Shown in pieces: positions 10,628-31,018 of a stretch of DNA of 64,000 nt. Made by a program: the position numbers and the translations under genes. This stretch comes from Rhizodiscina lignyota (taxonomy: Eukaryota; Ascomycota; Dothideomycetes; Aulographales; Rhizodiscinaceae). The notes under the pieces were generated by a model that was given only the letters and a program-made list of their open reading frames with translations, was not told where the DNA came from and did not search any database. The first letter of the stretch is position 1, and each line of letters begins with the position of its first letter. The stretch is taken from positions 744,001 to 808,000 of the forward strand of contig ML978126.1 of assembly GCA_010015805.1 (NCBI GenBank), given 5' to 3'.

Positions 10628-10696
10628 AATTAAGTTTGAACCGAAAGTTGTTGTATAAATCTAATTTCTAGGTGCTTGATGCACCTGTTTTCCAGG

Positions 10697-10738
10697 GGGC
10701 TTAGTCAGCCTGCAGCATTCCTGGCCGTGAGGGGGATA
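10697..10738 (-). repeat. Right terminal inverted repeat of piggyBac relic
   Basis: This is the reverse complement of 8556-8597. It ends GGCCGTGAGGGGGATA, and the next bases (GGGCC) do not match the left flank. Confidence 0.85.
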
Positions 10739-11197
10739 GGGCCAAGCGAGATAGCTCCATTGAGCGATGCTACTCACGAGACGTATCCGACCTGCAGCAT
10801 TGCAATAGATAGCCCAGAGGCTGCCGTAAACAATCGAGAAACTATTCGAAAGGGTCCCACTTGGCCAGGAGGGCACCAAGACAAGAAATAACAGAGGGCT
10901 GGCTAGACACCAAGTCCATTTAGACTAGTCAGAGAGACGGAAAGGCTTAGAAAATAGGAATCAAAAGATTAACGAAGAGACACTACATGTGGGAAATGTC
11001 TGTACAGGGACGGCAAGGCTTTTCGGAGACGTGACATATCAACGTCGTAACAAGAAGCTCTCGGACATGCCAGCTACGCAGTTCAACTATTCCAGAAGAT
11101 GTTAAAATACGGGTGATTATTATGTGCGCCGAATCGTGCATTTTGCACAGACCATACCGCCCATTTGTTGCTCCCATCAGGGCCAAGCCTCTTTCCC
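10739..11197. other. Intergenic between transposon relic and alpha-oxoamine synthase
   Basis: This 459-bp gap downstream of the convergently read AOS gene holds no gene I can support. Confidence 0.4.
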
Positions 11198-12789
11198 TTA
11201 AGACATAACAACCTGTGGCTCTTGTGGCACCAGTACTTCATTAACCTCAACCATGGCCATCTTCGTGTGGTGCATCTCGACCTTCCGCAGAATATCCGCC
11301 AGCGCCTTCTGCAGTTCCTTGGGTCCTGCCGACGCTGCGGTAACCAGCCCCTCGACGTCAACAGGCTCATTGCACTCGACGGCCATCAACTGCACCTTCA
11401 TCCACTGATCCAGTATCTCGATCAGGCCATCGACTTGCGCCTCGGTGTTGTGGGCGTGGAATCGCAGGCGGACGCGCTGCTTGCCGCGCGGCACGACGGG
11501 GTACTGGTGCGGCCACGCGACGTAGTCCATGAAGTGCATAAGGGCAACAAGGGACATGGTGTCCGGCGCGATCAAGGGTACAATTTGAGAGAGGTAGGTT
11601 TGGGACTCGAAGTCTTCGCCCGTGGGGACTGAGAGGATGCCGGCGGCTTTGGAGGCCGGCCAAGACGGAAGAGCGTGAAGCTTGCTGTAGAAGCGACGGA
11701 CCAGCGCTTCAATCTTTGCTTGGAGCTTTGTGAAGAATTAGCAGGGGAGCTACTAGCATGGGGGAAGAATACTCACAGGTGCTGTAGACCCATCCTCGAG
11801 GAGATCGTACGCACATTTGATTGCTGCTAGGAACGGAAACGAGGGGGATGTGGTGTAGATAATTCCAGGAGCATAGTTGATCAGGTAGTCCCTCACAGTA
11901 TCGGGACAGAGGACGGCGGCTACGGCTAATTAGAACACAAACTTTCGAGGCTTCTATGGCAAAACCTACCCCCATTTGAACTTAATCCTTTCCCATATGT
12001 GTGGAGCCGGATGGCCATCTTGCTCTCGAGCCCTGTCGCAGAGATGTATCCAGCTCCCTTTTCTCCGATCACGCCAGTGGCTTGGGCCTCGTCGACAACA
12101 AATATAGCATTTCCGCGCGGGAAGATCTCCGTGGCAATATCTGAGAGCTCTCGAAGCGGAGCAATATCACCGTCCATGGAATACACAGTCTCGACAGCGA
12201 TCAAGACAGTACGCAGGCCGAGCTTGAAGACGGGGTCGGATTCCCTGACGCGGGTAAGAACCCTGCGGAAATCATCGAGGTTGTTGTGAAGGAAGGACAT
12301 TTTTGTCGCTGCCCGTGTGACTTTCATGCCAACATGGACGCTCGCATGAATGAATTCATCGTAGATAATGACATCGGTTGGCGAAGGAAGAGATCCAAAG
12401 ATTGCAATGTTTGCTTCGTAGCCAGAATTGAAGATCAGCGCCGACTCCGCCTTGTGGAAAGCAGCAATCCTCTTTTCCAGCTGGTTGATGTATGGGTTGC
12501 TTCCATCAAGCAGGCGGGAGCCTCCACTGCCAAGGGTGAATCCCTTGTTATTCTCCAGCTCTTGCAGAAACCGCTCCCGGAGAATTCCATCCATAGAGAG
12601 ACCAAGGAAGTCGTTGGAAGCAAAGTCCACCGTGCCTGCTGGCCGCTCTCGGAGGGAGACCATGGCCTTCTTTCTTCTACGGCCATCGAGTGTGGCTTCG
12701 AGCATTTGATAGAAATGCGGCTGCCCCTCCATCTGATCGGCCTTCAGTTTCTGGCCGGCGTACCAGCTCTGAAGCATATCGACGACCAT
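11198..12789 (-). CDS. Alpha-oxoamine synthase (SPT/BioF-like PLP enzyme), three exons
   Basis: Exons 11970-12789, 11777-11925 and 11198-11725 join to 498 residues. Family members condense an amino acid with an acyl-CoA using PLP, releasing CO2 (serine palmitoyltransferase, KAPA synthase, FUM8-type). Visible motifs are TVDFASNDFLGLS, GSGGSRLLDGS, the PLP-ring Asp in FVVDEAQATG and the Schiff-base Lys267 in HTYGKGLSSNG. From memory the fold is closest to soluble BioF-like enzymes, so the substrate is open. Against a biotin role, the C-terminus ends VVMS, not a peroxisomal PTS1, with an extra tail of about 55 residues, and no other biotin gene is near. Neighbouring ceramidase, hydroxylases and a KDSR-like reductase favour a sphingoid-base product. 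The start is the ATG at 12789. Confidence 0.85.
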
Positions 12790-13554
12790 TTTGAAAAGAA
12801 TGAATTTCCGTTCTGTTTTCGGATTTGATAGAGAAACTTCAGAGCTGACACCAAGAAGGAAACTCGGCGTTCTCCACACTGAGCTCCAGACATACACCTA
12901 AAAGTACTCTAATATACATTTGGGTCACTGGGTGTAGGGCGCCGGCAAGGCTCCGGTTCCGCGCACGGGCATTCGGCACCCGGTGTGCGAAGTCCATTCC
13001 TGTAAGACCGGCGAAGCCGGACTCTGAAGTCTGTACACGGCTCTGGGCGGAGAGCTCGCTGTTGAAGGACGAGTTGTGGGTGGTGAAGATGGACCGGAGG
13101 TTCGGCGTTCATTGAGGCGGGTATCATATCACGAGATCTCCATCAACTACACAATAGTGTATATGATAGAGTCAAATTCGTACGAAACAGTCAACTAGGG
13201 AGTTCGAAAGGAGTTTTTATATTTCTTTTATCATCGGTAAGCGAAAGCAATTTTTTACTGCATTTTAACCATTATTTGTTTTGAGGTTGGCATAAAGTAC
13301 GCGCAATGGCAATTAAACGAATCAACGATGCTTCACGAGAACCTCTGTCACGGAATGCAAAGAAACACTTTTGCTCTAGCCACGATCATCGGAAGTTCCT
13401 GGTTGAATACTTTGGTCTATCTTGAGCTATCCATGCTGTACAGGAGTTTCGAATAATGCAATGTCCCAGAGCACCTATCGCCAACCCAGTTGAGCATTTC
13501 GGACAGTCCAACCTCTAGGATAGCGCCTCGACAAGAGCACCACAACACATGCTC
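12790..13554. other. Intergenic upstream of AOS, with CCGG-palindrome
   Basis: The 765-bp gap contains the AOS promoter and the 3' side of the regulator gene. At 13008-13020 it holds an inverted CCGG-CGAAG-CCGG element, a possible Zn2Cys6 site. A GC-rich patch at 12940-13035 gives a small open frame with no recognisable content. Confidence 0.4.
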
Positions 13555-16093
13555 TCAATGTAAATCCAAACCATCGCCCGTGAACGCCAAAGCTCTCCCC
13601 AGGTCCTGGTCGGAGTCGAAAAGTGTGAATTGGTCCTTGTCCAACATGTCTTGTCTCGACCGTTTCTTTGGTCTTGAGATTTCATCCCCGCCTAGCCAAT
13701 CCGACAGCAAAGTGTCGCTAAAGTTAGGTGTGCGGGGACGAATGGCTGAATTGCCGGTAGATACAGAGCCAGAAGGCATGTAATGGCTGAGTAGATCTGG
13801 AGGTGTGGAGCCATCTGAGGTCGTCCAGAGAGCGGTGCTGTCCATTCTAGTTCCTTGCGCATGGTTAGGAGATGAAGGTACGGATTTCTGACGGTCTTTG
13901 GCGAGATATTGGACGATCTGTGTAAGAGAGCGTAGGAGATCGGACAAGTGAGATTGATAAGTGCCTGTCTGTGATTCGAAAACATGATTGCGCTCGAGCA
14001 GGGCGGATGCAAACTCCAAGAGATGCGAGTCGTCGATATCGTATCCACGTGCGACATTATTGAGAGTGTGATGAAAGAGCATTGCGAAATTCAGAGGCGG
14101 ACAACTGAGAAGGATTCTGGGAGGCGAGATTAGCAAAGAAAGGCAAAATCATCCGGGTAAAGAATTATCAGAAGGCAAACCTTAATATTGTTCCGATAGG
14201 AACCAGGCTAAAATCAGCATCTGCTTCCTCCTTCAAGATCTGTATACTCGTTCTTGCGCAAGATAATGCTTCAATGCATGGCTGGACTGGAGCCGGAATG
14301 TTACAGACTAAACTCAGGCGTGCCATACATGCGAGATATTTGAGCTCAAGAAGATATGTTGCTACTTCAGCGGAGGCTGGCTGACGACTGATGACGGACG
14401 TGAGAGACCTCTCCCATTCGCCGAGTTCAAGACTGAGGTCCTTCGTCGCTTTTATTAGATTGCGATTAGCACGATCCCTAGGACGTCTGATATGAACGCC
14501 ACGATATATGCGCTCTTCAATTATGGATAATCGAATTCGGAGTGGAAAGCATGCTGAAAAAGGGTCATCTGACTTTTCCGTCGGAACAGGCAGCCAACAG
14601 TCATCTATGGAAATACAGCAAGATTTGCCGAAAAGTTGGCTATGAGTTTTGTCGAGCTGGTATAAAGTCCAGAACAATTGGGTGCGTTCTTCGGAGCTAT
14701 TGAGCAATTCTTCGTTTGGCTGTTGGCTTTGGCTTTGGCTTTGTCGATGCAGTCCGATACTTTTGGCAAGACTGCAGGAATGATATAAGATCAGTTCTGC
14801 TGTGCTGGGGTCAAAGTGATCTATTGCTGTCATATACTAGATTTTGAAGAGTGAGCAGAGCCACGTGAAGAGCATAAGTTGATGATGTGCTATGCACTCG
14901 CTTACCAGCAATATCAGAGCCTGGACGTTGAGGAGTCGTGGCTGAAAAACAAGGTCCGAATTGTCAAGGCCGGACCGTGCATGCTCAAGAAACTCTTTAA
15001 CAAACTCGACATCCATACCGAGACCATTGGAATGTCCGGAGTCACCGCTTGTCAGAAGACTATCCTCAATGCGGATGGTCAGAGATCGGACGACAATGCA
15101 ATTACAGATGACGGCCATCGCATTCCGGCTTGGATCGGACGGGTTGTCGTAAATGAGGTCCACGCGTTCCCTCAACTTGTTCTCGTCAAAAATTGGCGCT
15201 CGCCAATGATATCTCGAGAAGTAAAGAGCCAGAGATGCTTTGAGAAGCCCCTTCGGAGGAATTTGCATATAGGCATCGTTTGATTGCTTGGTTGGCCTTC
15301 CAAAACAACTCTTCTCGACCAGATTGGCCTTCAATTTGGCGAATATGTCGAGGCAGTGTTGTAGCTGGTCGTCGGCAATGCTGTCTGACTTCTGCAATTC
15401 CAGGAGACTCTTCTCAGCTTTACATTGGATGGAAAAGAGACTCAGTGGACCATAGTACAGCTCTTTATTGGCCCCTGAAGACAGCACGTGGTGAGATGTT
15501 TCCAGTTGGCTGTCACCGCAGAACCGTGCCTCGGTCTCCACATCTTGCGAAGAGAGAACCTCAGCATCGTTAATTTTGCTGGCGCCGAAATAGTCCATTG
15601 CTGCGGGGTTCAGGGAGCCTAGAGCCGGGCTGGAGTTCGGCGGGAGATTGTGCTGCATCATATCCATTAATTTAACTAGCGAATTATCGATGCTTTCTAG
15701 TCTTTCGTGCAATCCACCGAGGTTCTCAATGCTGCGGGAAACGTCATCTAAGCTACATGAAATACTATCGTGGCTTGTTGCACGTACACCTTCTGGTTCT
15801 GATTCGGGCGCTTCCCTCTATCGGAAAATGTGCATTGCAACCTGTTGCGCTTACAATTCAAGCATAGCGGGCGCTCTCGTCCGCAGCGGATCTTCTTTAC
15901 TCGGCATGAATCACACGCTGGATTATGCGTTGAGAAAATGGTAGCCTGTCACGAGAACCAGTCAATTGTAGAAGAGACAGGGTAAAGTGATTTGCCGTAC
16001 ACTTGATTCCTTTGTCCCTTCGGATGCTCCCGTGGCATCCCCATCTTCATGCTGCTGTCGATCGACGTCGCTACTTGAACATGAACGACGCAT
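13555..16093 (-). CDS. Zn2Cys6 fungal transcription factor, five exons (cluster regulator candidate)
   Basis: Exons 16003-16093, 15788-15917, 14906-15731, 14181-14836 and 13555-14116 join exactly in phase to 754 residues. The binuclear zinc cluster CDSCRVKKIRCGRERPLCLN-CKRNRLQC has cysteines at 32, 35, 42, 49, 52 and 59. It is followed by a coiled-coil-like LGGLHERLESIDNSLVKLMD linker. The Fungal_trans middle-homology region follows, including LILYHSCSLAKSIGLHRQ and the ELNNSSEERTQLFWTLYQLDK-type segment. Such proteins bind CGG-containing DNA in the nucleus. The gene sits between the alpha-oxoamine synthase and the desaturase, as pathway-specific regulators often do. The zinc exon is short and lies between two introns, so simple frame searches miss it. 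Confidence 0.88.
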
Positions 16094-17084
16094 TCTCACG
16101 AAAACAGATGTGGAAGAAGTGGCTAAAAAAGGGTTTCGTTCCCTTTGGGTGGAGCGAATTCGAAGTGGAAGTGCTCTCTGGAAGCTGCGGATCTTCAATG
16201 CTCATAGAAATCGGCCCGCGCCGCTTGGCTAACCACCAATGCGGACCTGTCAGATCAACTGCGAAAGCAAGGGCGTGCACGATTGCGGTCGGCCAGCGGC
16301 AAAGGCTTATAGCCGGCGAACGGAGGCCGTTGAGGTGTACATGTAGCTTGATATAGAATCAATGGATCGTACCGCTTCCTAAATAAGTCTCGGGCGTTAA
16401 ATATCAGAACTCCCCACATTCAGACCCACAATCGGGCTGACGGTGAAGGGTACACCGCAGAAATCCGATGACCAGGCACACTGGCACAGCGCCCTACAAA
16501 TTTAGTTAGTATCCGTAGGCTTACGCCGTAGCGCCGCTTAGATCCTCGACTTTCCTGTCCACCCTCCCCCTTTCTAAGCTAACAGCGGTTAGGCTGTCAT
16601 AAATACTAACTAAATTGAATAGAGCGCTGACATCGTGAGCGCCACGGCGGTTCTCAGCGCAGTGCCTGCTCATCCGTTTTCCACGGTTTGCGGCGTTGCG
16701 CGAAAATGGAAAGCCAGGTGCTGCGGTATCTTTTGGCTTAGTCGCTCACAACGAGGCAAGAATCAGAGGCTTTGCCAATTGAAATTAGCATATACATACT
16801 CACTTACCTATCTCCTCTCGTCAACATGCTCTCGTTCTAGAGCTATAAGGGAGTAGCTTAAATAGGCTCCCCTCTTTATTATTTTAGGCTCTTTAATAGA
16901 GACTAGGGATTTCCGTCTGTTCCCGCTTCGTAAAATGTTGGCTACGTGGCTGTTTAGGATCTACGCAGGATTTTCGATTCTTATGCGTACTAGGCATATT
17001 AAGGAGAAAAATAGCAAAAAAAGGCGTGATAGTTGATGAAGAAGACGCATGGTAACTAATAAAGGTGAGATGACAGGGGCTACT
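16094..17084. other. Intergenic with MITE-like element and AT-rich stretch
   Basis: This 991-bp gap has no gene I can support. It contains an inverted-repeat element at 16488-16628 and an AT-rich, TA-rich stretch at about 16790-17050 that may be decayed transposon sequence. Confidence 0.4.
16488..16628. mobile_element. MITE-like 141-bp inverted-repeat element
   Basis: The two ends read AGCGCCCTACAAATTTAGTT and, on the opposite strand, AGCGCTCTATTCAATTTAGT, both continuing into TTAGTTAGTAT. This gives imperfect terminal inverted repeats of about 26 bp with one indel. The inside is non-coding. Size and structure fit a MITE; the parent transposon family is not recognisable and no clear target duplication was seen. 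Confidence 0.55.
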
Positions 17085-18504
17085 CTATCTGCCTGCGATC
17101 CTGCTAATTTTCAGCGTCTCCACCTCGCATCCTCCTCGCAAAACCGCGATCCGCTTTGTAGCCAGAAGGTTCCTAGCGGCGTTGGAGTGCTGATAAACAC
17201 CGCCATTGAACGACGCTGTCCCATCCATGCCGATCTGTGATACGATCATAGGTAAGCCACCAGGGTGCTCTTGAACAAAATCCGAGACATCGTGGATGAC
17301 GCCTTCGATAGCAATCAGCTTGGTGCCACTCTTCACCCTCGCTTGGTACTCGTCCCATTCCATCACAGGAAGATCACAGATCGCTGGGCCCCAATCGAGC
17401 TTCTCACCCTCTCTGTCAAGTCGTTTGCGCGATTGCTGGTTGCGCCCCTTCTCAATCTCATTCCATCGGAAAGTCTTCAAGTCGCTTGCAAGACCTACCC
17501 ACTTCCATGCCCAAATCATCCACTTGGTGGTGTCATACTGGTACCATTCAATGCCATTGCGGTAATCCGACGGGAACTCGTGGTGGAAGTTGTGGTATCC
17601 TTCTCCCATTGTCAGCAGAGCCGTGAGAAGGTGGTCTCGCGCGGTCCGCCGATCATCGAAAGGCTGATCCCCCAAGTAGTGGGCCAGCGAGTTGACGCAG
17701 AAGGTGGCCTGATTCACGACAAAGGTGCGTAGAACTGCGGCGTACACGAAGCCTCCGTACCAATCGTTCCACCCAAAACCACACACCAGCGTCGGCAATA
17801 CCCACCCCATGAAGAGAGCGATCGGGATGTAGTGTTCGTGCTGAAATGCAACGACAGAATCGTTTGTCAAATCCTGGATCTCAACTCGGCATTTTCGTCT
17901 CGGCTGTTTCAGTATCAACCAGAGGATGTGCGCGTGGAAAATCCCCTTGTGCACGCCGTAGGGGTCATTGTCGGTATCGGTCCAGCGATGGTGGCAGCGA
18001 TGATCTGTTGCGAAATACTTGATCGAGCCTTGAATTGCTCCAGCGCCAAAGGCCGCCAGATATACTTTGAGCGGGAAAGTGGCTCTGAAGGCTCGATGTG
18101 ACCATAGACGATGATATCCTGTATTCTTTCAGCCTCGCCGACTTACAACTGGGAGCAGCACAAGTACCGGAGGTTATGGCTGATCCTGTTATGTAGTAGT
18201 AAACTGCTGAGAATATTGCCGTGTTCCTTTGGAGAGGTACGCGAAAGGCAAATATGAATGCTGCTAAAGGAATAAACACTAATTGTATCATGTAAGGCCA
18301 GTGGAAATGTTGATGCCAGTTAGTCCAGGTGAATGGCTGCTCGGAAATGTGCTTTGGCTTGGGAGCCTTCTCACTATTTTCTTGAGCTTCCCCGGTCAAT
18401 TCAATGATTTGAATTCTGGGCATCCGTTTCTCCTGGCCCTTTTCAGTCACTTCTGCCGCTATAACAATCGACATGTTCTCCTCTTGATTTTGATTAGCGG
18501 CCAT
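17085..18504 (-). CDS. Acyl-CoA (delta-9 type) desaturase with C-terminal cytochrome b5 domain, two exons
   Basis: Exons 18168-18504 and 17085-18118 (50-bp intron, GTACTT to ACAG) give 456 residues. It is an Ole1-type ER desaturase that introduces a cis double bond into fatty acyl-CoA. The three histidine boxes are present: [15 protein letters not shown] and the third, GYHNFHH. Membrane helices surround them. A cytochrome b5 domain at the C-terminus supplies electrons ([19 protein letters not shown], second haem His in GVYQHSN). Being inside the lipid gene group, it may be a dedicated copy rather than the housekeeping OLE1, but this cannot be decided here. Its promoter carries a perfect 14-bp palindrome at 18739-18752. 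Confidence 0.93.
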
Positions 18505-19017
18505 TATTGTCTCTATCGCGAATGGGAAAATAAATTAAACGAAGCGACTATCCAACCATGAATGGAAGCTCTCCGGAGTCAGCTATGCCATACCATCTGC
18601 TGTGGGCCTTCAGTATGGATAGACCTACAACCGGCAGATCTGCAACCGGCATACGCAGGGACACAAACCGGAGAGGAATACCATCCTGGCCACCGGACTC
18701 GGCCTTCGGCTGCCGCAGATTGCTCGTGTGTTCAGCGGGCGGACCGGTCCGCATCGGGATAGTAATCACGAGAGTCATGGCCAGGGGAGACGGGCTTCGC
18801 TGCTTCGCTGCTTCGGCTTCCGAGCACGTTCAGATCTTATTTTAGAATTGAAGCTTTGAGATGGTTGGTTCTGACTTGATGCTCCGGGACTATACCCCCT
18901 GACCTCCTCAAACCTGGAGTTTTTCATGTGATGGCTACGAGTCAGAATGGCTTCTCCGTACACTGCGGGAATTAAACTGGAGATGGCTTCTAACTAATCC
19001 ATCGCGTGGTGCATTCA
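18505..19017. other. Intergenic, desaturase promoter
   Basis: The 513-bp gap between desaturase start and ABC transporter stop is GC-rich at 18690-18760. It holds a 14-bp palindrome (18739-18752) and the word GGCCTTCGGCTGCCG (18701-18715), which recurs almost exactly upstream of the ceramidase gene. Confidence 0.4.
18739..18752. promoter_or_regulatory. Perfect palindrome GCGGACCGGTCCGC
   Basis: This is a CGG-N6-CCG arrangement about 235 bp upstream of the desaturase start. The spacing of inverted CGG triplets is what dimeric Zn2Cys6 proteins recognise. Binding is inferred, not shown. Confidence 0.4.
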
Positions 19018-22000
19018 TCAGCTATCTATTCCGGCCATAACTACTTGATGATACATTCCCCGCTTGGCAGAGAGCTCTTTGGGGGTCCCAGATTCGACAA
19101 TTACGCCTCGATCTAGCACATAGACGACGTCGCATTTCTCGATTGTTGAACGCCGGTGGGCCACAATCAGAACTGTTCCCTCTACCCCATTGTCCAGCGC
19201 CTCTGAAATAATCTTCTCGGACTCAAAATCCAACGCTGAGGTAGATTCGTCCAGGAGGAGCAGTGCCGGAGCTCTGATTAGGGCCTTAGCAATTGCAATT
19301 CGCTGCCTCTGTCCACCTGAGAATGTTGTGCCTTGCTGTCCACATTCAGTTTCAAACCCTGAATGTCGGCATTAGTAGATTCAATCCATGGGGGTTACTC
19401 TGCCTAACCTTCTGGGAGTGACATGATGAAGTCATAAATGAAGGCATCTTTGCAAGCCTTAACCAGTCGTTCTTCTTCTACTGGACCGTCGAGGCCGAGA
19501 CATATATTCTCTCGTATAGTACCTACTACTTGTCAATGTCATAGATACTGTAGGTGCTGAAGTGCAGAAAATGTTACCTTCGTAGAGTGTCGGGTCTTGT
19601 GGAACAAGGGCCATGTTCTTCCGATGCTTCGTTACGTCCAGGCTCCGCAAGGGAGTGCCTCCAACGAAGATGGTCCCCTCATCCGGATCATAGAACCTTT
19701 GTAAAAGAGACAGGATCGTTGTCTATGAACGCCAAGTCAGATTCATACATCTGATCGGATGAGTTTCCAATGACATACCTTTCCACATCCAGAGGTTCCA
19801 ACAAAAGCTACACGGTGGCCCTTTTGCACCTGCAGAGGTTTAGCAAAATGAATGGCTCGTAGGAAAATTCCCATACATTGCATGTAACCCCTTTCAGAAC
19901 TGGCTTGTCAGATCGAGACGGGTAAGAAAAATATACATTTTCGTATCTAACAGCAGGTTCGACCGCAACATCTCCCGGGACAGCAAGCGATCCTTTTGAG
20001 TTATTGATAGGAACAGCCTTTTCGTGCATATTGATAATCTCGGCGGCCGCATCCCAGGATTGAGTGAAATCTATGAGGGTTAGCGACAATCACAAACAGA
20101 GGGCAAACTTACTTGATGAGAAACTAAGCAGGCTTGAAGTGGCCTGGCCGCCGAAGACCACGGCAGCAAATATTGTGAAAAATTGGGTCAGGGTATAATC
20201 GCCGTTTGCCAGGAGATGCGATCCGTACCTGTTCCAATTAGTCAGATTAAAAAGGCAGGTTGAATGCGAAAATTGCTTAGCTTACCAAAATGCAAGAGCC
20301 ATGCCACATATTTCTAGAGACTCCGCAAGCGCTCCTACGATCATCGAGAACGCAGCGTGTCGCCAAATTCGCAAGAGGGCCTTGTCAAGTTGAACTTGAT
20401 ATCCTTCGTAGATCGTGCGTTCAATAGTCAATGCCTTGACTGTCCTCATGGCTAGGACTGCTTCTTGCGAGAATTGAGCGCTCTGTGCGTAAATTCGTGC
20501 TATCGCCTTCTCGAATCTGGACTGCAGTCTCAAACGTATGCCACCGGCAATACAGATTGGAGGAAGCACGACAAATACACCTACGAGGCCTAACCTCCAC
20601 CCTCTGACAAGCGCAAGTACTGAACAGCTCGCGATGTTCACGATCATGATAAGAATCAGCCCCAAACCTGTACTCAAAAGACCTTGTAGCTGTGTCGGAT
20701 GTGCAGACAGCCGGGATACAAGTGAAGCCGACGTATTCGTGGAGTCGTCAAAAAAAGCTATGTCTTGACGAACTAGATCCCGGAAATATTGAGCTCGATA
20801 AGTTTTGTTGAGATGCTAAAGCGCGAGAGGAGTATTAGTAGACTTGTGCAGCAGCAACATGAGAAGGCCATACCTGAGCAAGCACGGTGCCATTAAATCC
20901 CATAAGCGAGTATATTATCAACGTTACTACTCCGAGGACGAAGAGCCAGATAGATAAGAAGTCCGCTCGCGACTGGCCATTGTCTATTGGTCGCAAGAAA
21001 GCACCGACTAATTGACCGAAGAGAATGGCTTTAGCAGCTTGCACAAACCCTTATCTCGTTCGTCAGTATTCTTTCGTACATATTGGTTAGAGTACGAACC
21101 TCCCACAATACAAGGGAAGAAAGCTACCAGCATCCACGGCCATTCCGCCTTTTGCTCCTTGAAGAGCGCGTAATAGGCCGTTAGTGACGAAGATGACGAA
21201 GTCGGTTCGAAATGCTCTTGAAAGCGTTCCGTGACATTGCCTTCTACATTGCCCTGGCTTCGAATGTGCGAGGTTGCTTTTGATTTCGTATCGATGGTCT
21301 CCATCTCCAAAACATCTCCATTGGTCCCAATGGGAGCCTTTTGACTTGAATTCCGACTTGAATAGTCAAGATCGGTGGTGCGAATACTCTTGATGCTCGA
21401 CCGTGTCTCTCTTAATGAAGTGTCGTACTCGATTGCCGAATTGTTCTCAACAGTCCGCTGAGAAATTCTCGACAAAGTAGAATACCATCCATCGGAGTTG
21501 ATGAGTTGCTCAGGATTTCCACTCTCGACCACACGGCCGTTCGAAATCACCACAATTTGATCTGCGTCTAGTGTATCGGTGAAGTCATGAGTAATTGAGA
21601 TTGTTGTCCTGTGTTGGCACACGTCTGACAAGGCGTGTCGAACAGACTGTTTGCTTTCCGAATCCAGGGCTGCGGTCGCCTCATCAAGAATGAGGATATC
21701 CGGATTAGATATAATCGCTCGTCTAGAGTTTGGGTCAGTTTATTCATCAATCTAAACGCTGGGGTCGCATTTTGACTAACGCAATTGCGAGGCGCTGTTT
21801 TTGGCCGCCGGAAATAGTCTTCGCACTTTCTCCTAGTTCTGTATCGTACCCCTTTCAGGCTTCAGCTTGGGAGCATATTTCCGGCATTCGTGAGACATAC
21901 ATGTGGTAGGTCCATAATGAATGCATGGGCATGACTGGCTTTGCATGCTTCAATGACAAGACGTCGTTGCTCACTTTGTGAGACGTTCTCTTGTGGCGTT

Positions 22001-23591
22001 CCTACGAGACCGTGTGCAACATTCGTATGTATGGAGGCGTTAAATAACCGAACGTCCTTTGGCGATATTATTAGTGCTTGATTTGGCTAAATATTGGTCA
22101 AATCGTCTGCATACTTGCTGAACTAAACCAATTTTCTTTCTCAGATATTGGACCTCGAACTCTTCGATACTACGACCACCGATCGAGACAACACCTTGAT
22201 CAATTGGATACCATCGCTGCATGATTCCAACAATAGTACCTGAAACACTGGTTAGCCCTGTTTTCTTTGCGTCAATAGAGTGCTGATGACCACACTTTTT
22301 CCGGAGCCCGATGGACCAACAATCACAGTCTTCTTTCCCCTAGGTATCCACAGCCTTGGCAGTTCAAGTACTACGGTTGAAGGTCTGGTAGGATAACAGA
22401 ACTTGATGTTTCTGAGCTCTATATCACCCTTGAAGACCAGCTCGTTCGAATCCCCGGCATTCACTCGCTCAGGCATAGAATTAATCTCATCAACATGCAG
22501 TAAGACTGCCGCCGATGCTGCCTTGCCAATGATCGGGAGCTGTAAGGAGAGTGAGGTCATAGAATTCCCCGAAATTAACACACAAAAGAAGACCCTGCGA
22601 CCATGTCAGTACTATGGAAACTTTTCCTTTGAAGTTGAAGATCTGACGTGATAATTTCTCCGGGACCAGGAATCTCGCCCTTGCGATACAATATGAACCC
22701 ATACCAGAAGGCAAGCGCATACCCACAAAATGGGAAAAACGAGTCGAAGGCATACTGTGCTCCAATGGCGGGCGCTTTCTTGATCCCTAAGGCGTAGGCT
22801 TCACGGAGATACGTGTCGTATTTACCGGCTATTTTAGACTGTGTGCCATACGCAACTGTATCTCGGATCGAAGAAAAGACTTCCGCCGCGAGCGAGTTTG
22901 CTGATGCGTAAATTTTCATGATCTTCGAGTCCAGATCAGCCTCAGCGAAGACCGCCAGGCCGACCACAACACCTGTCAGGGGAATGATCACTCCAGTGAC
23001 AAGAGTGAGCCTCCAACTCCTGTCAAAAGATATTATAATTGCCGTAACCGTGGTGGAAGCAAATTGCAAGGTTAGCCCAAGCTTCTCTCCACAACCTTGC
23101 TCAATCGCATTGATTTGATCCATGGAAGCGGCAATACTGCCCTTGTTCGCCTTTGTCGATGGATCTACTGCGTCGAAGTATGATATGGGTTTCTGTAACA
23201 GTGTTGAGACTTGGGCGAGTCGAATTCTTTGCGCGATGCGTGATGAGGTAATTGTTAAGAGCACCATATAGATGTACGTTGCGGCGAATTTTGCGATGAA
23301 GTAATAGACCATCCGAAGCGCTTTGTCGTTTGTTTCCCTCGTCAAATCCTTTCCGGCAACCTCATGCCGCGCAAATGCCAGAAAAGCATTTGCTAATTGG
23401 CCCCAGTTCAAGACAACCAAAGGAAAGATGGTTCCCGCCCCGATTGCCGCCAAAATTCCAATGACCAGAAGAACTTTGTCAAGGATCGAACACCCTCTGA
23501 AAAGTCCGAGGAAGGCAGAGAGGAGGCCTGGACGCTGATTCAACTCTTTTTTCAAAGGAATTGGTAATGACTCCTCGCTATTAGGCTCCAT
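19018..23591 (-). CDS. Full-size ABC-B (MDR-type) transporter, 14 exons
   Basis: Exons are 22648-23591, 22296-22594, 22115-22239, 21901-22056, 21781-21851, 21100-21722, 20874-21049, 20286-20815, 20113-20228, 19877-20070, 19779-19829, 19578-19722, 19409-19522 and 19018-19358. They sum to 3885 nt and 1294 residues without a break. The order is TM domain, nucleotide-binding domain, TM domain, nucleotide-binding domain. NBD1 has GPSGSGKS, ISGGQKQR and ILILDEA. NBD2 has GTSGCGKT, FSGGQRQR and LLLLDES. This is the P-glycoprotein/Ste6 layout of plasma-membrane lipid and drug exporters. It could export the cluster product or give self-protection, or act as a flippase for sphingoid lipids; the substrate is not readable from sequence. 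Confidence 0.93.
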
Positions 23592-23981
23592 GTCGACGGC
23601 TGATCAAAATTGAGGCGTGGATGAAAGAGGTGAGGTTGGTTGTTGTTGTTGGCGGAAGACGGAGACCGAACCCGGCGCGCGCGTGTGAAGGAACGTGCGT
23701 ACTGAACGAGCGAGCGAACTTTTTCGTGAGATAATTATACATTATTTTCGATACTTTTCAATGAAGAGGAGAACATCAAATGCTCCGAGTATCAATGTAA
23801 ATGTCACGGGCACATAAACTAAGGTGATGCACATGACCCCCGGGACTCCACATTGCGTCGGGTGTAACCATTTCACACGCCCAAACAAGAGCAGGTTTAA
23901 TATTTCGTTGTCGTAAAGTGATTTAAAGGGCTATACAGAGTAGTCTTTAAATTAAATCTCTACAGGTGCTGAATCTATGTA
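23592..23981. other. Intergenic, ABC transporter promoter and ceramidase 3' end
   Basis: The 390-bp gap has no gene. A GC-run with alternating CG (GGCGCGCGCGTG) lies at about 23675. Confidence 0.35.
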
Positions 23982-25090
23982 TTATTTCTGAGAATCACCA
24001 CCCTGCGAAATAGTGACGACTGGCGTCTGGAGGATTGATGACCAGGTGATCTGGAGTGACTCCTTGTCGGAACTGCTCGCCAAATGCAGATACTCCACCA
24101 ACACCATGTACAGATAAACTCCAATGCCAGTGAGGACGTGCCACCTAGCTTAGTCAGTAAATAAAGCAGGAATTCTAACGGGTAGACAAACCAGCCATGA
24201 AACTCCAGCACAAATTCCAGCGGTACGCCAATGGTATGTCTCATGGCCCTTAAATGGGAGCAACAATATACATCTACCAGCCAAAAACCATAACCAGAGA
24301 CGAAGGACACTGTCGGTGTTAGTATTCTTGAGATATATTCTGCGTTGAGCATTTTTACCAAAGCCCAGGTTTCCAAGCTTGGCCAACAGGTTTTTCTCGC
24401 TGGCAGACTTCACGGTGGTCTTGATTAGGCGTGATACCCTCCTCCAGATGACAAAAAGCATAAGCGCGAAAGTCGTCCAATGTATCACCGGCTGAGAGAG
24501 CGCGTACTGGACGTAGAATATGAGCGACAAGCCCACAATGAGGAAGAGGCCTAAAGGCCACTTCATGCGCTCGTTTTCAAAGGCTACGACACGGTGGAGA
24601 ACGATTGCGGCCCCGAAGAACATGGAAAGCTGGTCGGCTATTGCTGTGAGTAAGTTGCCTGGTATGCGTAGGTAAATATCTAACTCACCTGATTGCAAAG
24701 ATCTTTTTAGAGTCATGTGGAACATGGCGGAGCCGATCCCAACCCCGACCAGCGCAAGGTATTGAAGATTGAAATCAAGGAACGGACGTCGACGCCAGTT
24801 GCAGAAGAGGCCGCAAAGCCCGAAGTAGACTGAAACGAATCAAGGTCAGCAGAAGCATCTCTCAGATGCGGGCCACGCTGAAGAGGACTCTTACCATAGC
24901 CCACATTGGAAATCGTGTTGATGAATTCAGCAGCATATGATGTAACGTGATAATCTTCTTCGCAGAAACTCAATGGCCACACGTTAGTTACGCAATGTCA
25001 ACCACGAACTAAGGCGTCTTACTTTGTGGTTGCCGTTGGAGGCCCCCATGCAGGTGGCTTGCCACCCTCACTAGGGAGATACACGACCAT
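23982..25090 (-). CDS. Alkaline ceramidase (Ypc1/Ydc1 family), six exons
   Basis: Exons 25023-25090, 24895-24968, 24689-24829, 24359-24643, 24192-24309 and 23982-24144 join in phase to 282 residues. Alkaline ceramidases are seven-helix ER/Golgi enzymes that split ceramide into sphingoid base and fatty acid, and yeast members also run the reverse reaction. Conserved parts are the N-terminal NFCEEDYHVTSYAAEFINT metal-site region, VGIGSAMFHMTLK with the metal His, and the final HGWWHVLTGIGVYLYMVLVE block with two His. The 49-bp intron 4 has a perfect ACTAAC branch site. All metal-binding motifs look intact, so the protein should be active. It is a direct sphingolipid marker for this cluster. Confidence 0.93.
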
Positions 25091-25431
25091 CTTGCAGTTT
25101 TCGGCAGAAATCGACAAGTGTGTGAGTGAAGCCGGAAAGTCGTCGCGAAATTGAACACGAGGAAGGATTCGAAGGAATGAGTCGGAGTTTCGGGCCTTCG
25201 GCCGCCGAGGCCCGCAACTTGTGCAACCCCTGATATCACGTGCGTTGGAAATACTGTTGGAGATCCAAGATTGAGTGTCTTTGAGCAGGCTAACTAATTG
25301 TAAGACTCTCAATGCCATCTAGCGCTCAGTGAGATGGCGCTCTTCAGCTTGCAGCGCATTTGTTTGGTTTGCCAGTACATGCGAACTCTCGCGACGACTG
25401 ATCCATCTGATGGCCTTCCCGACCGGGTTGC
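25091..25431. other. Intergenic, ceramidase promoter
   Basis: The 341-bp gap has no gene. It contains a GC-rich imperfect hairpin at 25191-25211 that includes GGCCTTCGGCCGCCG, shared with the desaturase promoter. Confidence 0.35.
25191..25211. promoter_or_regulatory. GC-rich hairpin and shared promoter word
   Basis: The sequence CGGGCCTTCGGC, then C, then GCCGAGGCCCG forms an imperfect inverted repeat about 100 bp upstream of the ceramidase ATG. Fifteen bases match the desaturase upstream region (18701-18715) at 14 positions. A shared regulator site is possible but unproven. Confidence 0.3.
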
Positions 25432-26452
25432 TCATAGCTCCTTCATCACCTCCTCTGCCATGCGTTTCGGCATATGTTTTGCCATGCGCTTCTCATCCTC
25501 CAGCCTCAGCTTCCGTGGCCCGACATACCCGCAGCCAAGAATGGTCTCCCAGAAGTTGAAGAACAAAGCGTAGTTATACTGCTCCGCATCAGTGTCTGGC
25601 GTTTCACGATGGAAAGAATCAGCCTCACCTTCATTCCCCAGGCTTGATGGTGGACGTTGTGGTGAACGATATCCACCCCAGCAATTCGACCCCATGCGCT
25701 TATTGGATTCCATGGAATATCGTATCCGGAATGGTCATCGCAGCCTTTCAGAGTGCTGAATGTGAAGAAGAAAAGTGTTTCCTTGGGAGTGAGGCCTACA
25801 ACCCGAGATCCTAAGATCGCTCCCACCGTTTCGAAAATGAAGGTCTCTGCCAGAGTATTGAATGAGGCGCCATAGGCTTTGGGGCGGTATAGCTGATGGT
25901 GATGCGCGTGTAATCTCTCTGACGGACGTTAGAATGTACGAAGGCATGCCGGAAACAATGAGCCATACTGTATATCCAATGATTGGCATGTGCCGAGTAA
26001 TGCGCCCAAAAATACCAAAAGTCCATCACTAACATGGCACCAAGGATACGAGCCCCGTGCCACGCCAGTGCAACGATCCATGGCAGGGCGATCACGAGAG
26101 GACTTGAAGACGACATTGCTTCATTCTCCGCCCATGACTTCAAGGTGAGGTAGAATTGCGGATAACTCGGTTGATTAGGCTTTTCGAAGGGTGCGGTTAG
26201 CAGACTGGCTGCAAGCTGACAGAACTGTTGCTCCAAGACATTCCAGATCACCTCTGATCCGGATACCGCGTTGGGTCTGGCGTTTGGCAAGAAGATCTGG
26301 TATTGTGGAAGAAGATTGTATTTATCGATGACGTAAAAGAGCGACGAATAAAGCCAATAAATCGTTGGCGGAACAACAGCTTGCAAGTACAGATCGTCCC
26401 ACGTTGTTTCAGCAAGCTTGGATAAGGCGTTTGCCCAAACTTCGGAGAACAT
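25432..26452 (-). CDS. Fatty acid hydroxylase superfamily protein A (Sur2-like), three exons
   Basis: Exons 25969-26452, 25629-25918 and 25432-25578 give 306 residues. The superfamily comprises di-iron membrane oxygenases (sphingolipid C4-hydroxylase, C5-sterol desaturase and relatives) using cytochrome b5 electrons in the ER. The histidine clusters are HYSAHANHWIY (HxxxH), LHAHHHQLY and VDIVHHNVHHQAWGMK, with several hydrophobic helices before them. The overall pattern is closest to Sur2-type C4-hydroxylases, which make phytosphingosine, but no sequence search backs a finer call. Intron phases (1 and 0) and exon 2 length (290 nt) equal those of the divergent neighbour, so the pair arose by duplication. 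Confidence 0.88.
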
Positions 26453-26813
26453 GGTTGCAGCGTGAAGGTTTCAACGAGTAATGCCTTAGATCAGACGCGA
26501 GCGTCCTGCTGTGCAAGATTCTCAGTTCTTGAGGGTTCAACATCAAAGTAGAAAATGGCTCAAATACCTGATTGGGGCCACGTGAAACGACTTCTGGAGT
26601 ACGGCAGCCGTAACTCCTTTTTATGCGAACGCTCATCGGATCGCAACCCGAGACTCGGGACGAACGATACCGAAGACTATACCGGTGCATTCTGATCAAT
26701 CCAGGAATAGATAATAATTTTTTGGGTGATTTGAATGTGTGTTTCAATGCTCTGCTGTATCTGCTGAACAATCACTCTCAGTTCTCAAGCAATTGTTCCT
26801 TTATTTTTACACC
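26453..26813. promoter_or_regulatory. Shared divergent promoter of the two hydroxylases
   Basis: The 361-bp gap separates the two start codons. It contains the perfect 13-bp palindrome CCCGAGACTCGGG at 26647-26659, an everted CCG-N5-CGG arrangement suited to a dimeric Zn2Cys6 regulator. Co-regulation is inferred. Confidence 0.45.
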
Positions 26814-27751
26814 ATGACGGTCTACGATCTCGCGAGCGACCCAAAGGTGTCTCCAATTGCACCAGTCATCGGATATTGGGTGATGAGCGTATGCTTTATG
26901 AGTCTCGAAAAGCTCAATGCCTTCCCGCAATATCGCACACAACCTCCTCAAGACGTCGACAAGAAGAATCTAGTCACAAAATCGCAGGTCTTCGTTGGAG
27001 TGATAGGCATGCAAGCGGTACAAATAATCGGTGGAATATTTCTGGCCCAGTTCGAGGAGCCCCCCGGCAGATACGTACAGCCAAGTACACTGTCCGCACT
27101 GGACGAAGGCATTGTTTCGTTTGTCCCAACGATACCACGAACATTATCCGTATGGTTGGCATTCGTTCTCTTCTATGGAAGCCGGCAATTTATTGCATTT
27201 GCGATCAGCGACTGCTGGCACTACTTCGTTCACAGATTTGAGCATGTGAACAAATGGGTCTATAGTTTGCGCTGTCCTCCCGTTGAAGAAGGCGTACTAG
27301 CTAATGCAATGCAGAGAACGTCCACTCGCAACACCATCGTCTGTATGTTCCATACGCATTCGGAGCACTCTATAATCACCCTGCAGAGAGCGTGTTCAAC
27401 GACATACTCGGGGGCTTATTAACAGCGTGGTTGGTCGGCCTTACAAATGCGGAGAAGACGGTCTTCTTCACGCTGGCTACATTGAAGACTGTGGATGATC
27501 ATTGCGGCTACCAGCTGCCATGGGATATTATTAGCTGGATTGGGCGCGCAACGGGTAATGATGCATACTACCATGCTGTTCATCATGAACCCAAAGGAAT
27601 CAAGGCAGGAAAATCCTTTTTAACCCTTTGGAGCTCAGCTAATGATGTATGGCACCTTCAGTCAAATTACGCGGCAGTCTTTACTGTCTGGGATGACTTA
27701 ATGGGCACGAGAAAGCGCCACCAGGACTTAAAACACGAGCACGCGGAATAG
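26814..27751 (+). CDS. Fatty acid hydroxylase superfamily protein B (Sur2-like), three exons
   Basis: Exons 26814-27264, 27315-27604 and 27662-27751 give 276 residues. It is a paralogue of the neighbouring hydroxylase A in head-to-head arrangement. Motifs are DCWHYFVHRFEHVNKWVYK, VHSQHHRLY and DAYYHAVHHEPKGIK, followed by SNYAAVFTVWDDLMGT. Intron 1 is GTTTGC to ATGCAG. The second intron, 27605-27661, begins GC instead of GT. It is 57 bp, divisible by three and free of stops, so an unsp spliced reading would add 19 residues after the last His box. Position homology with the GT-AG intron of paralogue A makes splicing likelier. The enzyme probably acts on an ER sphingoid or acyl substrate. Confidence 0.86.
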
Positions 27752-28193
27752 TACGGCGACACAAAAGGACATTGCCAGAAACAGTGCATATTAAAATGGA
27801 CAATGGAGTCTGATTCATGCCATCACAGTCTGAAATGAAGTTATTGCATGAAGAACAGGCCGAGTTCATTTAGTGAGCTCCGATGCACGATGAATCTATC
27901 TCTTGTGTAAACGCTACTATGATTGTTGTATGCAACATGTAATTCTATTCCATGGAAATATAATCTTTGGTCCAGTTCAATTCCCTAAAAATAAACCCTC
28001 GCCTTTTCGTTTGAGATGCAGATCTGATCGCTGCTCGGCTCCCGAAGCCCAGGCCCTGTTCGAGGTGAGAATCGGTGTTCGGAATACCTGTGGCAAAATT
28101 AGCCACATCTACAACTCCATCCTTCAGTGTTTTGAAATCAAACATTGATGATCTATTTTTCTCCTTGCGAAAGGTGCCCTACGAATACCCAAG
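27752..28193. other. Intergenic between hydroxylase B and KDSR-like gene
   Basis: The 442-bp gap has short frames only. No gene is supported. Confidence 0.35.
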
Positions 28194-29246
28194 ATGCTCG
28201 GCTTTTGGAACAAGCACATGAATTTTAACGGAATGGTATGATTTCGCGTACTCATAAAGAAGGGCTTAACGCTAAGATGCTATGTAGAACGTCCTGATCA
28301 CGGGAGGTGCCAGTGGACTGGGTAAAGAACTCGCCACTCTCTTCGTGCTCAGAGGAGCAAGCGTCACGATACTTGCCCGAACGAAATCAAAGCTCGAGTC
28401 CGCAACATCAGAACTGCAGGCAAAATGCAAGACACAGGGCCAACGAATAGATTATATTGCGATTGATCTTACAGATCACGAAGCAGTGAGCCCCACATAG
28501 TCCAGATGCACGACACTCCTTAACACGCACGTCTGTGAGCGTAGGTGGAGAAGGCGTTGAACGAGCGTTCCTGCGTCCCAGACATTGTCATCTGCAGCGC
28601 CGGCGGCGCGCGGCATGAAAATGGCTACTTCGTCGACCTTACGCCTAAGCAAGTCAATGACTGCATGGCAAACAATTACGTTACCGCATTCTCAACGAGC
28701 CAAATCTGCCTTCGTCTATGGCTCAAGAGTAAACGTCCTTCTCACCCCCGTCACATCGTTTTTGTGTCTTCAACCGCTGCTTTCGTCGGTGTACCCGGAT
28801 ACGCTGCTTACACGGCGTCGAAAGTGGCTGTGAGAGTGCTCGCCGACACGCTGAGGCAAGAGCTGCTTATGTACGGCGGCAAAGACGCCTTTCAAGTGCA
28901 CTGTGCATTCCCGGGGACATTTGTGTCGGATGCGCTTCTCGACGGCTTAGGGGATAAGCCAGAACTCACCAAGCAGATGGAAGGTCTTCAAGATTCAGCT
29001 GAGGTAGCTAAGAAATTCTTGTCTTGTGAAGAAGTAGCGAAGAGGATCTTGAGAGGACTGGAAAATGGCGAATTCATGATTACAGTGGACTTGGAGGGTA
29101 GGGCCTTGTTGAATAATATGAGGGGTCCGAGTCCAAGAGACTACGGTTTCGTAGATTCGGTTTTAGGAATCGTGACCCCAATTATATGGTCCGTTTATAG
29201 ACGTGCATTTGATCGCATGGCGGGAGAGTATGGAGCACGTTCTTAA
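28194..29246 (+). CDS. 3-ketodihydrosphingosine reductase-like SDR (Tsc10/KDSR), three exons
   Basis: Exons 28194-28235, 28288-28485 and 28545-29246 give 313 residues. KDSR uses NADPH to reduce the 3-keto group made by serine palmitoyltransferase, on the cytosolic ER face. The Rossmann signature TGGASGLG lies at residues 19-26, with CSAGGARHENGYFVDLT after it. The catalytic Ser lies in VFVSSTAAF and Tyr169/Lys173 lie in YAAYTASK. The stretch QVHCAFPGTFVSDALLDGLG, then KPELTKQMEG, is characteristic of Tsc10 homologues. A C-terminal hydrophobic stretch (SVLGIVTPIIWSVY) may anchor it to the membrane. Together with the alpha-oxoamine synthase this gives the first two steps of a sphingoid-base pathway. 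Confidence 0.88.
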
Positions 29247-30370
29247 AACAAAAGCGACACAGCAGCTTGGTAGCTCAAAATGGGAGTAGGAATATCGGGG
29301 TTGAGCAATATCTAAGTTTCTAGTAAATCGATAGAATACCGGAGGCGTGACTGGCAGCTTCGTCCACGATTCGAACTCAAGATGAAGTACACAGTGACTA
29401 AAGAGCATCTAGATTACTGTCATGTCTGCAAATATGAATGTTCGACTCGTAGATGGACTTCAAACATTGTGACGAGCTGCGGCGTGTCAGTAAAGTCATC
29501 ATTGTACAGAAGACATATGTAGAGAACTTAGGAGATAGTGTATGTAATCTTACATAATTTACAGGTCAACAGCATGGGTAAATATAGACTCCAGCTCTGT
29601 GGCTTGTTTACCTGTATCGTCTTCCAGCAATCGCCGCATCCGGTGTGGGGGAGGGCCTCTCACAGCCTCAGTGTCATGTTCCCATCAAGAACGTTGACCG
29701 CAAAGCCAGTGGTTCATCCACGGCGATTGAAGTCGGCAACAGTGAGTCGAATTGGGGACCTTCCATTCCCTCATCTAATTTAACGCCCAGCTAGCACCGC
29801 AGTTGCTCGATGTCGTTTTGCACTTTGTCTTCGATGTCGTATTCTGACGTGCAAGGCCAGTGGCTGTGCGGATTTTGGTAGGAAGCATGGATAATGGTGT
29901 GCTGGAAGAGGCCATGCGCGCGCCACAGCGCAAGATAAATGCGATCAAGAAGTTCACGCAGCAGGCGTGTGAGCAAGGCAGACTGTAACTGGGAACAGAG
30001 GGAATTTTCACTGCGAGTTGTCTTGCGTTTCTCAAAGGACTCGAGGACCTTTTGAATAGCCTGCGAGAGACATTGACAATTCAAACCTGTGGCCTCTTCA
30101 AAATCCAGAAGTCACAGAGTCCATACCAACGCCAATGAATCTCGTTGGGAGTAATACCATTTGCATAGCACTATGGCTAAGTACAAACGCGGCAGTTCTC
30201 ATGCCAATCTTCGTGTCGGTTCAAAAACTCCTCAGACTACAATGCCGTCCCAAGATAGCAGCATACAAAGCCATCACCATGCCCAGTCAAGGTGGTTTCG
30301 AACTCCGGTTTTTCCAGTCCCATTCGCACCGCAGTCCAGTCTAGACGCGTGGGCAATGACACAGTCGCGA
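29247..30370. other. Intergenic with unassigned minus-strand frame
   Basis: This 1.1-kb gap has no firm gene. On the minus strand at 29791-30110 an open stretch (for example QAIQKVLESFEKRKTTRSEN, then LLTRLLRELLDRIYLALWRA) looks protein-like and helical. It lacks an ATG and splice partner I can defend, so it may be an exon or a relic. Confidence 0.3.
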
Positions 30371-31018
30371 TCAGACCGCTCGCCTCCTTCCTCGCAATGC
30401 CTCGAACGCCAGGATCATCTGGAGTTTCTTCGTCCAGCGATACTCTGTACGATCCATCCACAGATTTTGAGGATCGTGTCTAGCTAGTAGCAGGTATGAG
30501 GTACGGTCCCATATCTCTATCTGGCGCACGCGAAACGAGCAGACCCACCCCATATCGTGTCGCCATGAGCTGCATACAGAGGCGAGAGAGCGCAGTGTAT
30601 TCTCGCCGTTGGTGAGCTTAGCCGCTTCCCACTGCTTCTTCAGGAAAGCATTCCGCTCGTCGGTGTAGTACGCCTTCCTGTCTAGGATTCTGTCGTGCGG
30701 CCGCGGAGTAGACGCGTCGATCGCTAGTGCAAATATGTATTGCCGGATATCCTGTGGGAGGTCTTCGAATCTCGCCGTCACGTCAGGCATTGGCCTCAAG
30801 GGGCGATCTCGTACCCTCTTCCTGCTCGTGTATTCCGTGACATAGGAGCTTGATCTGCCGGGGTCTGGCGTCGCATCAGTTCCTTCTGGTTCAGTTTGCA
30901 TCTGGTCGGCGGAGCGCTTTAGTCGGCTCATAACTCGGCTCGCCATCGTTGGTGTAATTTGACCATCGCCGCCTTCGCGTGCCGGATCAGCGATCGGAGC
31001 TCCAGTAGTTACCGACAT
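30371..31018 (-). CDS. F-box-like domain hypothetical protein
   Basis: This is a single frame of 215 residues from a true ATG. After a disordered, basic N-terminus (SRLKRSADQM, then SRKRVRDRPL), residues about 85-150 read RFEDLPQDIRQYIFALAID and, later, SLASVCSSWRHDMGWV. That is the usual LP...I...IF then L..VCk.Wr pattern of F-box domains, which bind Skp1 in SCF ubiquitin ligases. The C-terminal half has no recognised repeats, and the protein is short for the family. The call is moderate. It lies beyond the KDSR gene and may mark the right edge of the lipid cluster. Confidence 0.6.
   Translation of the reverse strand: MSVTTGAPIADPAREGGDGQITPTMASRVMSRLKRSADQMQTEPEGTDATPDPGRSSSYVTEYTSRKRVRDRPLRPMPDVTARFEDLPQDIRQYIFALAIDASTPRPHDRILDRKAYYTDERNAFLKKQWEAAKLTNGENTLRSLASVCSSWRHDMGWVCSFRVRQIEIWDRTSYLLLARHDPQNLWMDRTEYRWTKKLQMILAFEALRGRRRAV

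Follow-up and report, generated by a model that had tools for sequence, protein, structure and literature searches.

What are eight neighbouring genes for enzymes of sphingolipid type doing side by side in the genome of Rhizodiscina lignyota, with no polyketide synthase (PKS) close to them? The genes lie in a stretch of 64,000 nucleotides, here called the window, on contig C6 (contigs of the genome are labelled C1, C2 and so on), and occupy window positions 11198-29246, which correspond to C6:755198-773246. We consider it probable that they form a co-regulated specialised-lipid cluster, in which a PKS-free sphingoid-lipid pathway is fed by acyl-CoA. A fuller answer, which we put forward tentatively and at rather less than an even chance, is that the cluster uses a SphA-type (homodimeric) synthase to turn acyl-CoA directly into a sphingoid base or ceramide for secretion, dispensing with the PKS and recruiting a duplicated long-chain-base pathway, that it possibly also serves as an inhibitor-proof spare route, and that it is partly common to two fungal classes.

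Eight spliced models, all open and intact, were obtained in the gene order A to H, with A to F on the minus strand and G and H on the plus strand. Gene A (11198..12789) encodes a SphA-like alpha-oxoamine synthase (AOS) of 498 amino acids in 3 exons, with the Pfam domain Aminotran_1_2 and no C-terminal peroxisomal targeting signal type 1 (PTS1). Gene B (13555..16093) encodes a Zn2Cys6 regulator of 764 amino acids in 5 exons (Zn_clus and Fungal_trans). The product of gene C (17085..18504; 456 amino acids) is an OLE1-type acyl-CoA desaturase with a C-terminal cytochrome b5 (FA_desaturase and Cyt-b5), in which the His boxes and HPGG are both kept. Gene D (19018..23591; 14 exons) specifies a full-length ABC-B-type transporter of 1294 amino acids with two ABC_membrane and two ABC_tran domains, that is, two transmembrane and two nucleotide-binding domains. 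An alkaline ceramidase of 280 amino acids is encoded by the 6 exons of gene E (23982..25090; Ceramidase PF05875, E 1e-70). Genes F (25432..26452; 306 amino acids, 3 exons) and G (26814..27751) both encode SUR2-like hydroxylases with the domain FA_hydroxylase PF04116, and gene H (28194..29246) a KDSR/TSC10-type short-chain reductase of 313 amino acids (adh_short). Coordinates, open models and Pfam domains agree with the earlier note, which had claimed eight adjacent intact genes of these families.

The introns of genes A to G were placed by reading, and comparison with a deposited protein checks the H model alone: it matches a deposited R. lignyota protein at 313 of 313 residues. For intron 2 of gene B a 56-base version was used, a 35-base version also being possible. 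A frameshift in the ceramidase gene could be dismissed, as a 49-base intron carrying TACTAAC restores the frame. Gene G contains an in-frame stretch of 57 bases (27605-27661) at the place where F has an ordinary GT-AG intron. For this reason the stretch was read as a GC-AG intron, which gives a predicted protein of 276 amino acids; as a coding insert, the alternative, it would give 295. F and G have two intron positions in common, one being the GC-AG intron of G, which suggests a common origin of the two genes. In searches of outside proteins the AOS of R. lignyota itself was absent among the matches listed (the best 120 of 1673) and its ceramidase was absent among 13 matches, while its reductase was present. 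Public gene models at 11198-12789 and 23982-25090 may be missing or different.

Are these then simply the housekeeping genes of sphingolipid metabolism? The earlier note had reckoned with the case that they are the only genomic copies of each function. Genome searches started from A, C, E, G and H, spliced models were built at ten loci, and each of these five families proved to have further members elsewhere. Named by similarity and characteristic features, they comprise an LCB2-like protein and SUR2 (both C1), a BioF with the C-terminus SKL (C3), OLE1 (C6, at 945 kb), an ERG25-like protein (C8), an LCB1-like protein (C9), two ceramidases (C9 and C14), a HEM1-like protein (C12) and a TSC10-like reductase (C13). 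The cluster proteins have diverged from them: A shows 42% identity to BioF, 29% to HEM1 and 26% to LCB2, C is 54% identical to OLE1, E 30 and 31% to the two ceramidases, H 30% to TSC10, and G and F 44% and 36%, respectively, to SUR2. A housekeeping role of the eight genes was rejected, since A, C, E, G and H all have housekeeping-like counterparts elsewhere, and the SUR2 that matches G also aligns with F.

The earlier assignment of A to the alpha-oxoamine synthases holds, and both the matches in the PDB and the tree refine it to the SphA type and away from a subunit of serine palmitoyltransferase (SPT). Its closest PDB entries are 9dos (E 4e-112) and 9pep, the aminoacyl transferase SphA (E 9e-109), compared with 9e-29 for the best SPT. 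Of the 40 rows in the AOS tree, 34 were drawn from the 120 listed homologues (the best 120 of 1673); the others were A, three further copies of the fungus itself and two stretches from the PDB. In this tree A falls into one clade (support 100/99) with AJ79_01575 of Helicocarpus griseus and a partial protein from a metagenome. The sister group of this clade consists of 15 rows, made up of both PDB chains (SphA 9pep among them) and 13 homologues, and the joint clade has a support of 98/99. Given this placement and the E-value of 9e-109, A is a class II aminotransferase of the single-protein type found for sphinganine-analogue metabolites (SAM). The fungus' own BioF sits among 20 separate rows with a group support of 82/59. 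Judged by eye, proteins on the BioF side mostly end in a PTS1-like sequence and those on the SphA side do not; A ends in VVMS and the BioF on C3 in SKL. A BioF, that is, a 7-keto-8-aminopelargonate (KAPA) synthase, is excluded by the SphA-side position (98/99) and the missing PTS1, and an LCB1/LCB2 SPT subunit by the PDB matches and by the own LCB2-like protein, which is 26% identical and falls outside in the tree.

The presumed lysine for binding of pyridoxal 5'-phosphate (PLP) lies in the motif HTYGKGL of A. At a position that we take to contact PLP, A has DEAQ in place of the motif DEAH, a change seen also in 2 of the 120 listed homologues (best 120 of 1673), the clade partners of A; 117 have H, and in one the motif was unmatched. 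By-eye alignment places a serine of A (GSGGSR) opposite position 83 of 5-aminolevulinate synthase (ALAS), which is taken to steer the choice of donor. Papers are cited here by their PMC numbers. Serine at the ALAS 83 position has been reported for KAPA synthase, SAM1 and SAM2 enzymes (PMC7376913), and the amino donor of SphA was aminomalonate when it acted on one acyl-CoA, and serine when it acted on palmitoyl-CoA (PMC10936153). Because SphA took either donor depending on the acyl-CoA, the donor of A is not readable from its sequence.

The remaining enzymes fit a long-chain-base pathway. For H the nearest PDB entry is TSC10 (8jat, E 4e-23), and the model carries TGGASGLG and S..YTASK, presumably the nucleotide motif and the Ser-Tyr-Lys residues of short-chain dehydrogenases/reductases (SDRs); motifs and nearest structure point to a KDSR/TSC10-type protein with a predicted 3-ketosphinganine reductase activity. 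ACER3 (6g7o) was the single PDB match of the ceramidase E. The E, S, H, D and HxxxH positions of the two align with one change, DE to DQ, and we assume that the residues kept are the metal-binding and catalytic ones. In F and G the His boxes are kept, and identity to the own SUR2 (36% for F, 44% for G) exceeds the roughly 31% to the ERG25-like protein. With SUR2 as the nearest relative in the genome and the matching domain, both appear to be SUR2-type hydroxylases.

The chain-building enzyme of sphinganine-analogue clusters was missing. No ketosynthase was found in the window, and matches on C6 were confined to 1060701-1061593, 287 kb past the cluster end (C6:773246), so the description of the cluster as PKS-free is borne out on this contig. 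Genome-wide there were 29 ketosynthase matches, exon pieces being counted apart. Ceramide-synthase-type sequences (PF03798) gave eight matches on C1, C2 and C5 and none on C6; a ceramide synthase inside the cluster, the hallmark of a FUM15-19-type unit, was thus absent.

It might be asked whether the set is peculiar to this fungus. Outside proteins were searched with A, E and H, and what follows on co-location and phylogeny speaks for these three genes. In H. griseus the homologues were AJ79_01575 for the AOS (64% identity), AJ79_01573 for the reductase (47%) and AJ79_01571 for the ceramidase (55%); in Rasamsonia byssochlamydoides they were VTN77DRAFT_5993 for the ceramidase (61%) and VTN77DRAFT_5991 for the reductase (48%). 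Contig sizes agree within each species (284844 in Helicocarpus, 241121 in Rasamsonia) and the Helicocarpus genes span five gene numbers. Provided that the numbering follows the contig, the three Helicocarpus genes, and likewise the two of Rasamsonia, are very probably close neighbours. The co-location in relatives looked for by the earlier note was therefore seen for all three genes in the former and for two of the three, E and H, in the latter. Ceramidase matches numbered 13 in total, with Rasamsonia (61%), Penicilliopsis zonata ASPZODRAFT_28499 (57%) and H. griseus (55%) as the best. The Penicilliopsis protein, a close homologue, marks a candidate for another cluster.

The window copy grouped with Helicocarpus in all three trees and with Rasamsonia in two. 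In the ceramidase tree (16 rows, including all 13 matches) E groups with the relatives' proteins at 93/95, and in the reductase tree, a quick tree of 58 rows with 56 of the 120 listed homologues, H does so with a value of 93 in the SH-like approximate likelihood-ratio test (SH-aLRT). Both trees gave a long-branch warning, with the own TSC10 among the long branches. A, E and H each stand apart from the housekeeping copies, as the earlier note would expect of extra paralogues; the supports of E and H lie below the starred level. Helicocarpus and Rasamsonia are Eurotiomycetes and R. lignyota is a member of the Dothideomycetes, so the gene set is patchily common to two classes.

Evidence for co-regulation came from the promoters. 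Each of the seven intergenic promoter regions contains the palindrome CGG-N3-CCG. Together they have eight sites within 3803 bases, lying 73-314 bases ahead of the start codon. The sites are at 12974..12982 (gene A), 16321..16329 (B), 18707..18715 and 18814..18822 (both C), 23660..23668 (D), 25199..25207 (E), 26602..26610 (the divergent promoter common to F and G) and 28036..28044 (H). At the genome rate of 5712 per 33.4 Mb, which the cluster promoters exceed 12 times, 0.65 sites would be expected (Poisson P for eight or more, 4e-7). Elsewhere we counted three sites in the remaining 14.2 kb of the cluster, in coding parts of D and F, and five in the 46 kb outside. Over the full window there is no enrichment (16 sites against 12.2 expected, with as many in 16 of 100 shuffles), so the enrichment is confined to the promoters. 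Moreover, scanning of the window found no site at 28044-37982 or at 2842-12974, and the sites therefore bracket the eight genes. In the upstream kilobase of the ten other-copy loci, some of whose starts are approximate, the pattern was lacking at nine and occurred twice at the ERG25-like locus.

None of 1000 dinucleotide shuffles placed any of 39 CGG/CCG patterns in all seven regions (the best reached 5), and when sets of seven real segments were drawn 5000 times from 93 kb of sequence outside the cluster, CGG-N3-CCG occurred in four of the seven at most. A general search for promoter words found five gapped words in all seven regions against a shuffle mean of 2.25 (largest 6, n=40), which is unconvincing alone. 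A common palindrome of half-sites is what a Zn2Cys6 regulon should display, and its presence here supports co-regulation. A site with the same CGG-N3-CCG core, TCGGN3CCGA, has been proposed, without proof, for the regulator GliZ (PMC4006717). R. lignyota CBS 133067 itself is listed in a table of gliotoxin clusters with the homologue NA57DRAFT_81988, taken as gliP (PMC9030297). Besides its two sites, the desaturase promoter contains a perfect 14-base palindrome, GCGGACCGGTCCGC, at 18739-18752.

A Pfam scan of 20 chosen further frames in the window returned ankyrin, phosphoribosyltransferase, transposase, methyltransferase, N-acetyltransferase, MmgE/PrpD and epimerase domains, a second Fungal_trans factor and a sugar transporter, or no match above the cut-off. 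Right of the cluster come the second Fungal_trans regulator and the sugar transporter, at 36734-38362 and 44844-46040. On the other side, next to the 3' end of the AOS gene, positions 8780-10624 hold a decayed-looking piggyBac-type element, two frames of which match the ends of DDE_Tnp_1_7 (2-117 and 263-349 of 349). The genome contains one full copy of this remnant and a 98-base match on C5, and with a single full copy the idea that the element carried the cluster is unsupported.

How might the cluster work? In each cluster promoter CGG-N3-CCG would be bound by regulator B or by another Zn2Cys6 factor of its kind. Desaturase C probably unsaturates cellular acyl-CoA, and synthase A would condense acyl-CoA with a small amino donor such as serine, alanine or aminomalonate. 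Reduction of the 3-keto group could follow through H and hydroxylation of the chain through F and G, one of them acting at C4 by analogy with SUR2. The ceramidase E might take off or put on the N-acyl group, and D would export the product. Since the chain comes from fatty acid metabolism in this scheme, no PKS would be needed. A precedent for such chemistry without a PKS chain may be seen in SphA, which in vitro made 3-ketodihydrosphingosine from palmitoyl-CoA and serine, albeit less than the control SPT, and in sphF, which restored yeast tsc10-1 (PMC10936153).

Several observations speak against this scheme or loosen it. We had forecast AJ79_01568 as the Helicocarpus reductase, and it proved to be AJ79_01573, which means that gene order is not conserved. 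Among the best 120 of 1673 AOS matches, some of them unnamed, no row was named Rasamsonia or Penicilliopsis; as a Rasamsonia synthase is missing there, the clusters of the relatives may differ. Helicocarpus 01572 or 01574 could encode a PKS. That the supports for the grouping of E and H fall short of the starred level counts here too, and the change from DEAH to DEAQ could mean that A has an altered activity. As to the promoters, the test of the 39-pattern class was post hoc, CGG-N3-CCG being already among the words of the general search, and in the 5000 draws of real segments one of the 39 patterns did once hit all seven.

The most serious competitor holds that the genes are a bypass for self-protection. 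As an inhibitor-insensitive spare route, A would stand in for SPT, H for TSC10, F and G for SUR2 and E, running in reverse, for ceramide synthase, while D would expel an inhibitor made by a competitor or by another cluster of the fungus itself. The enzymes do parallel the long-chain-base pathway, and self-protection by clustered genes is known from FUM15-19, a five-gene subcluster (PMC11796371). Because over-expression of sphA and sphF lowered the toxicity of myriocin (PMC10936153), we leave this explanation a quarter of the weight. It is nevertheless unlikely, for a bypass has no evident need of an OLE1-type desaturase or of two diverged hydroxylases (36% and 44% to SUR2), C6 has no ceramide-synthase-type match, and a separate toxin cluster should have its own SphA-type AOS, of which no second one appeared among the 7 genome matches to A.

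It is more doubtful still that we are dealing with an ordinary sphinganine-analogue cluster of the PKS type, whose chain is supplied in trans by a PKS elsewhere in the genome. The AOS groups with SphA-type enzymes and the SDR with cluster-type SDRs, rather than with the own housekeeping copies, and the 29 ketosynthase matches offer candidates. However, clusters in the Fusarium survey keep the PKS and the aminotransferase (AT) together, and mostly the SDR too (PMC7376913), the distance to the nearest ketosynthase on the contig is large, and the cluster has an acyl-CoA-type desaturase of its own. Chance neighbourhood of unrelated lipid-gene paralogues is disfavoured and would be a great surprise: although the co-location in another species concerns three of the eight genes, those searched, the enzymes form a coherent pathway, the promoter site is present in every region, and the trees of A, E and H join the window copy to the same relatives, Helicocarpus in all three and Rasamsonia in two.

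If the acyl-CoA-fed pathway that we prefer is real, a dedicated, co-regulated sphingoid pathway can use ordinary acyl-CoA. Known sphinganine analogues include inhibitors of SPT and of ceramide synthase, and a new branch of the family would for this reason matter to lipid biology and to natural-product work. It would further allow a test of what clustered paralogues of sphingolipid genes are for, a product, self-protection or both: SphA takes part in sphingofungin biosynthesis, and sphA together with sphF also lowered myriocin toxicity (PMC10936153). For hypoculoside, a sphingoid-base-like antifungal lipid of Acremonium, the authors describe the pathway as undetermined and leave both fatty acid synthase and PKS as sources of the chain (PMC6345779). 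A cluster without a PKS would escape a survey such as that in Fusarium, since its signature was PKS, aminotransferase and reductase (PMC7376913). In the literature searched, which mostly did not extend to subscription papers, we found no earlier description of such a PKS-free cluster, and the accessible portions of PMC13161914 and PMC9603476 describe none; a paper on Cryphonectria proved to have no bearing on the matter.

Among known systems, the sphingofungin cluster of Aspergillus fumigatus is similar in having a SphA-type single-chain AOS, the KDSR-type reductase SphF, the regulator SphG, a transporter and hydroxylation of the chain. It also has the PKS SphB, the P450 SphH, the acyl transferase SphE and a major facilitator superfamily transporter (PMC10936153), all of which the eight genes lack. 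In their place the R. lignyota cluster has a desaturase of the acyl-CoA type, a pair of SUR2-like hydroxylases, a ceramidase and, as transporter, one of the ABC-B type. The SAM1-SAM5 clusters of Fusarium and other fungi likewise combine a single-protein class II AT with an SDR, and were sought as PKS plus AT plus SDR (PMC7376913). Of these the R. lignyota cluster has the AOS and the short-chain ketoreductase (H), together with sphingolipid-type tailoring genes; as the defining PKS is absent, we do not class it as a SAM cluster. An AOS, a ketoreductase, an ABC transporter and genes of lipid pathways are also found inside the FUM cluster (PMC11796371). There, however, the chain is a polyketide and Fum8 resembles a fusion of Lcb1 and Lcb2 (PMC7376913), and self-protection relies on ceramide synthases and an acyl-CoA ligase (PMC11796371), neither of which occurs among the eight genes. 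The housekeeping LCB1/LCB2, TSC10, SUR2, YPC1/YDC1 and OLE1 share the chemistry family by family; in R. lignyota they are at scattered loci, identity between the cluster copies and those tested is 26-54%, and the AOS belongs to another subfamily. Wickerhamomyces ciferrii secretes acetylated phytosphingosine derived from acyl-CoA, using its housekeeping pathway, is not known to have a dedicated cluster for it, and is alike in being a fungus that secretes an acyl-CoA-derived sphingoid base. The R. lignyota cluster can be seen as a variant of the sphinganine-analogue clusters, and may work like one with a chain derived from acyl-CoA.

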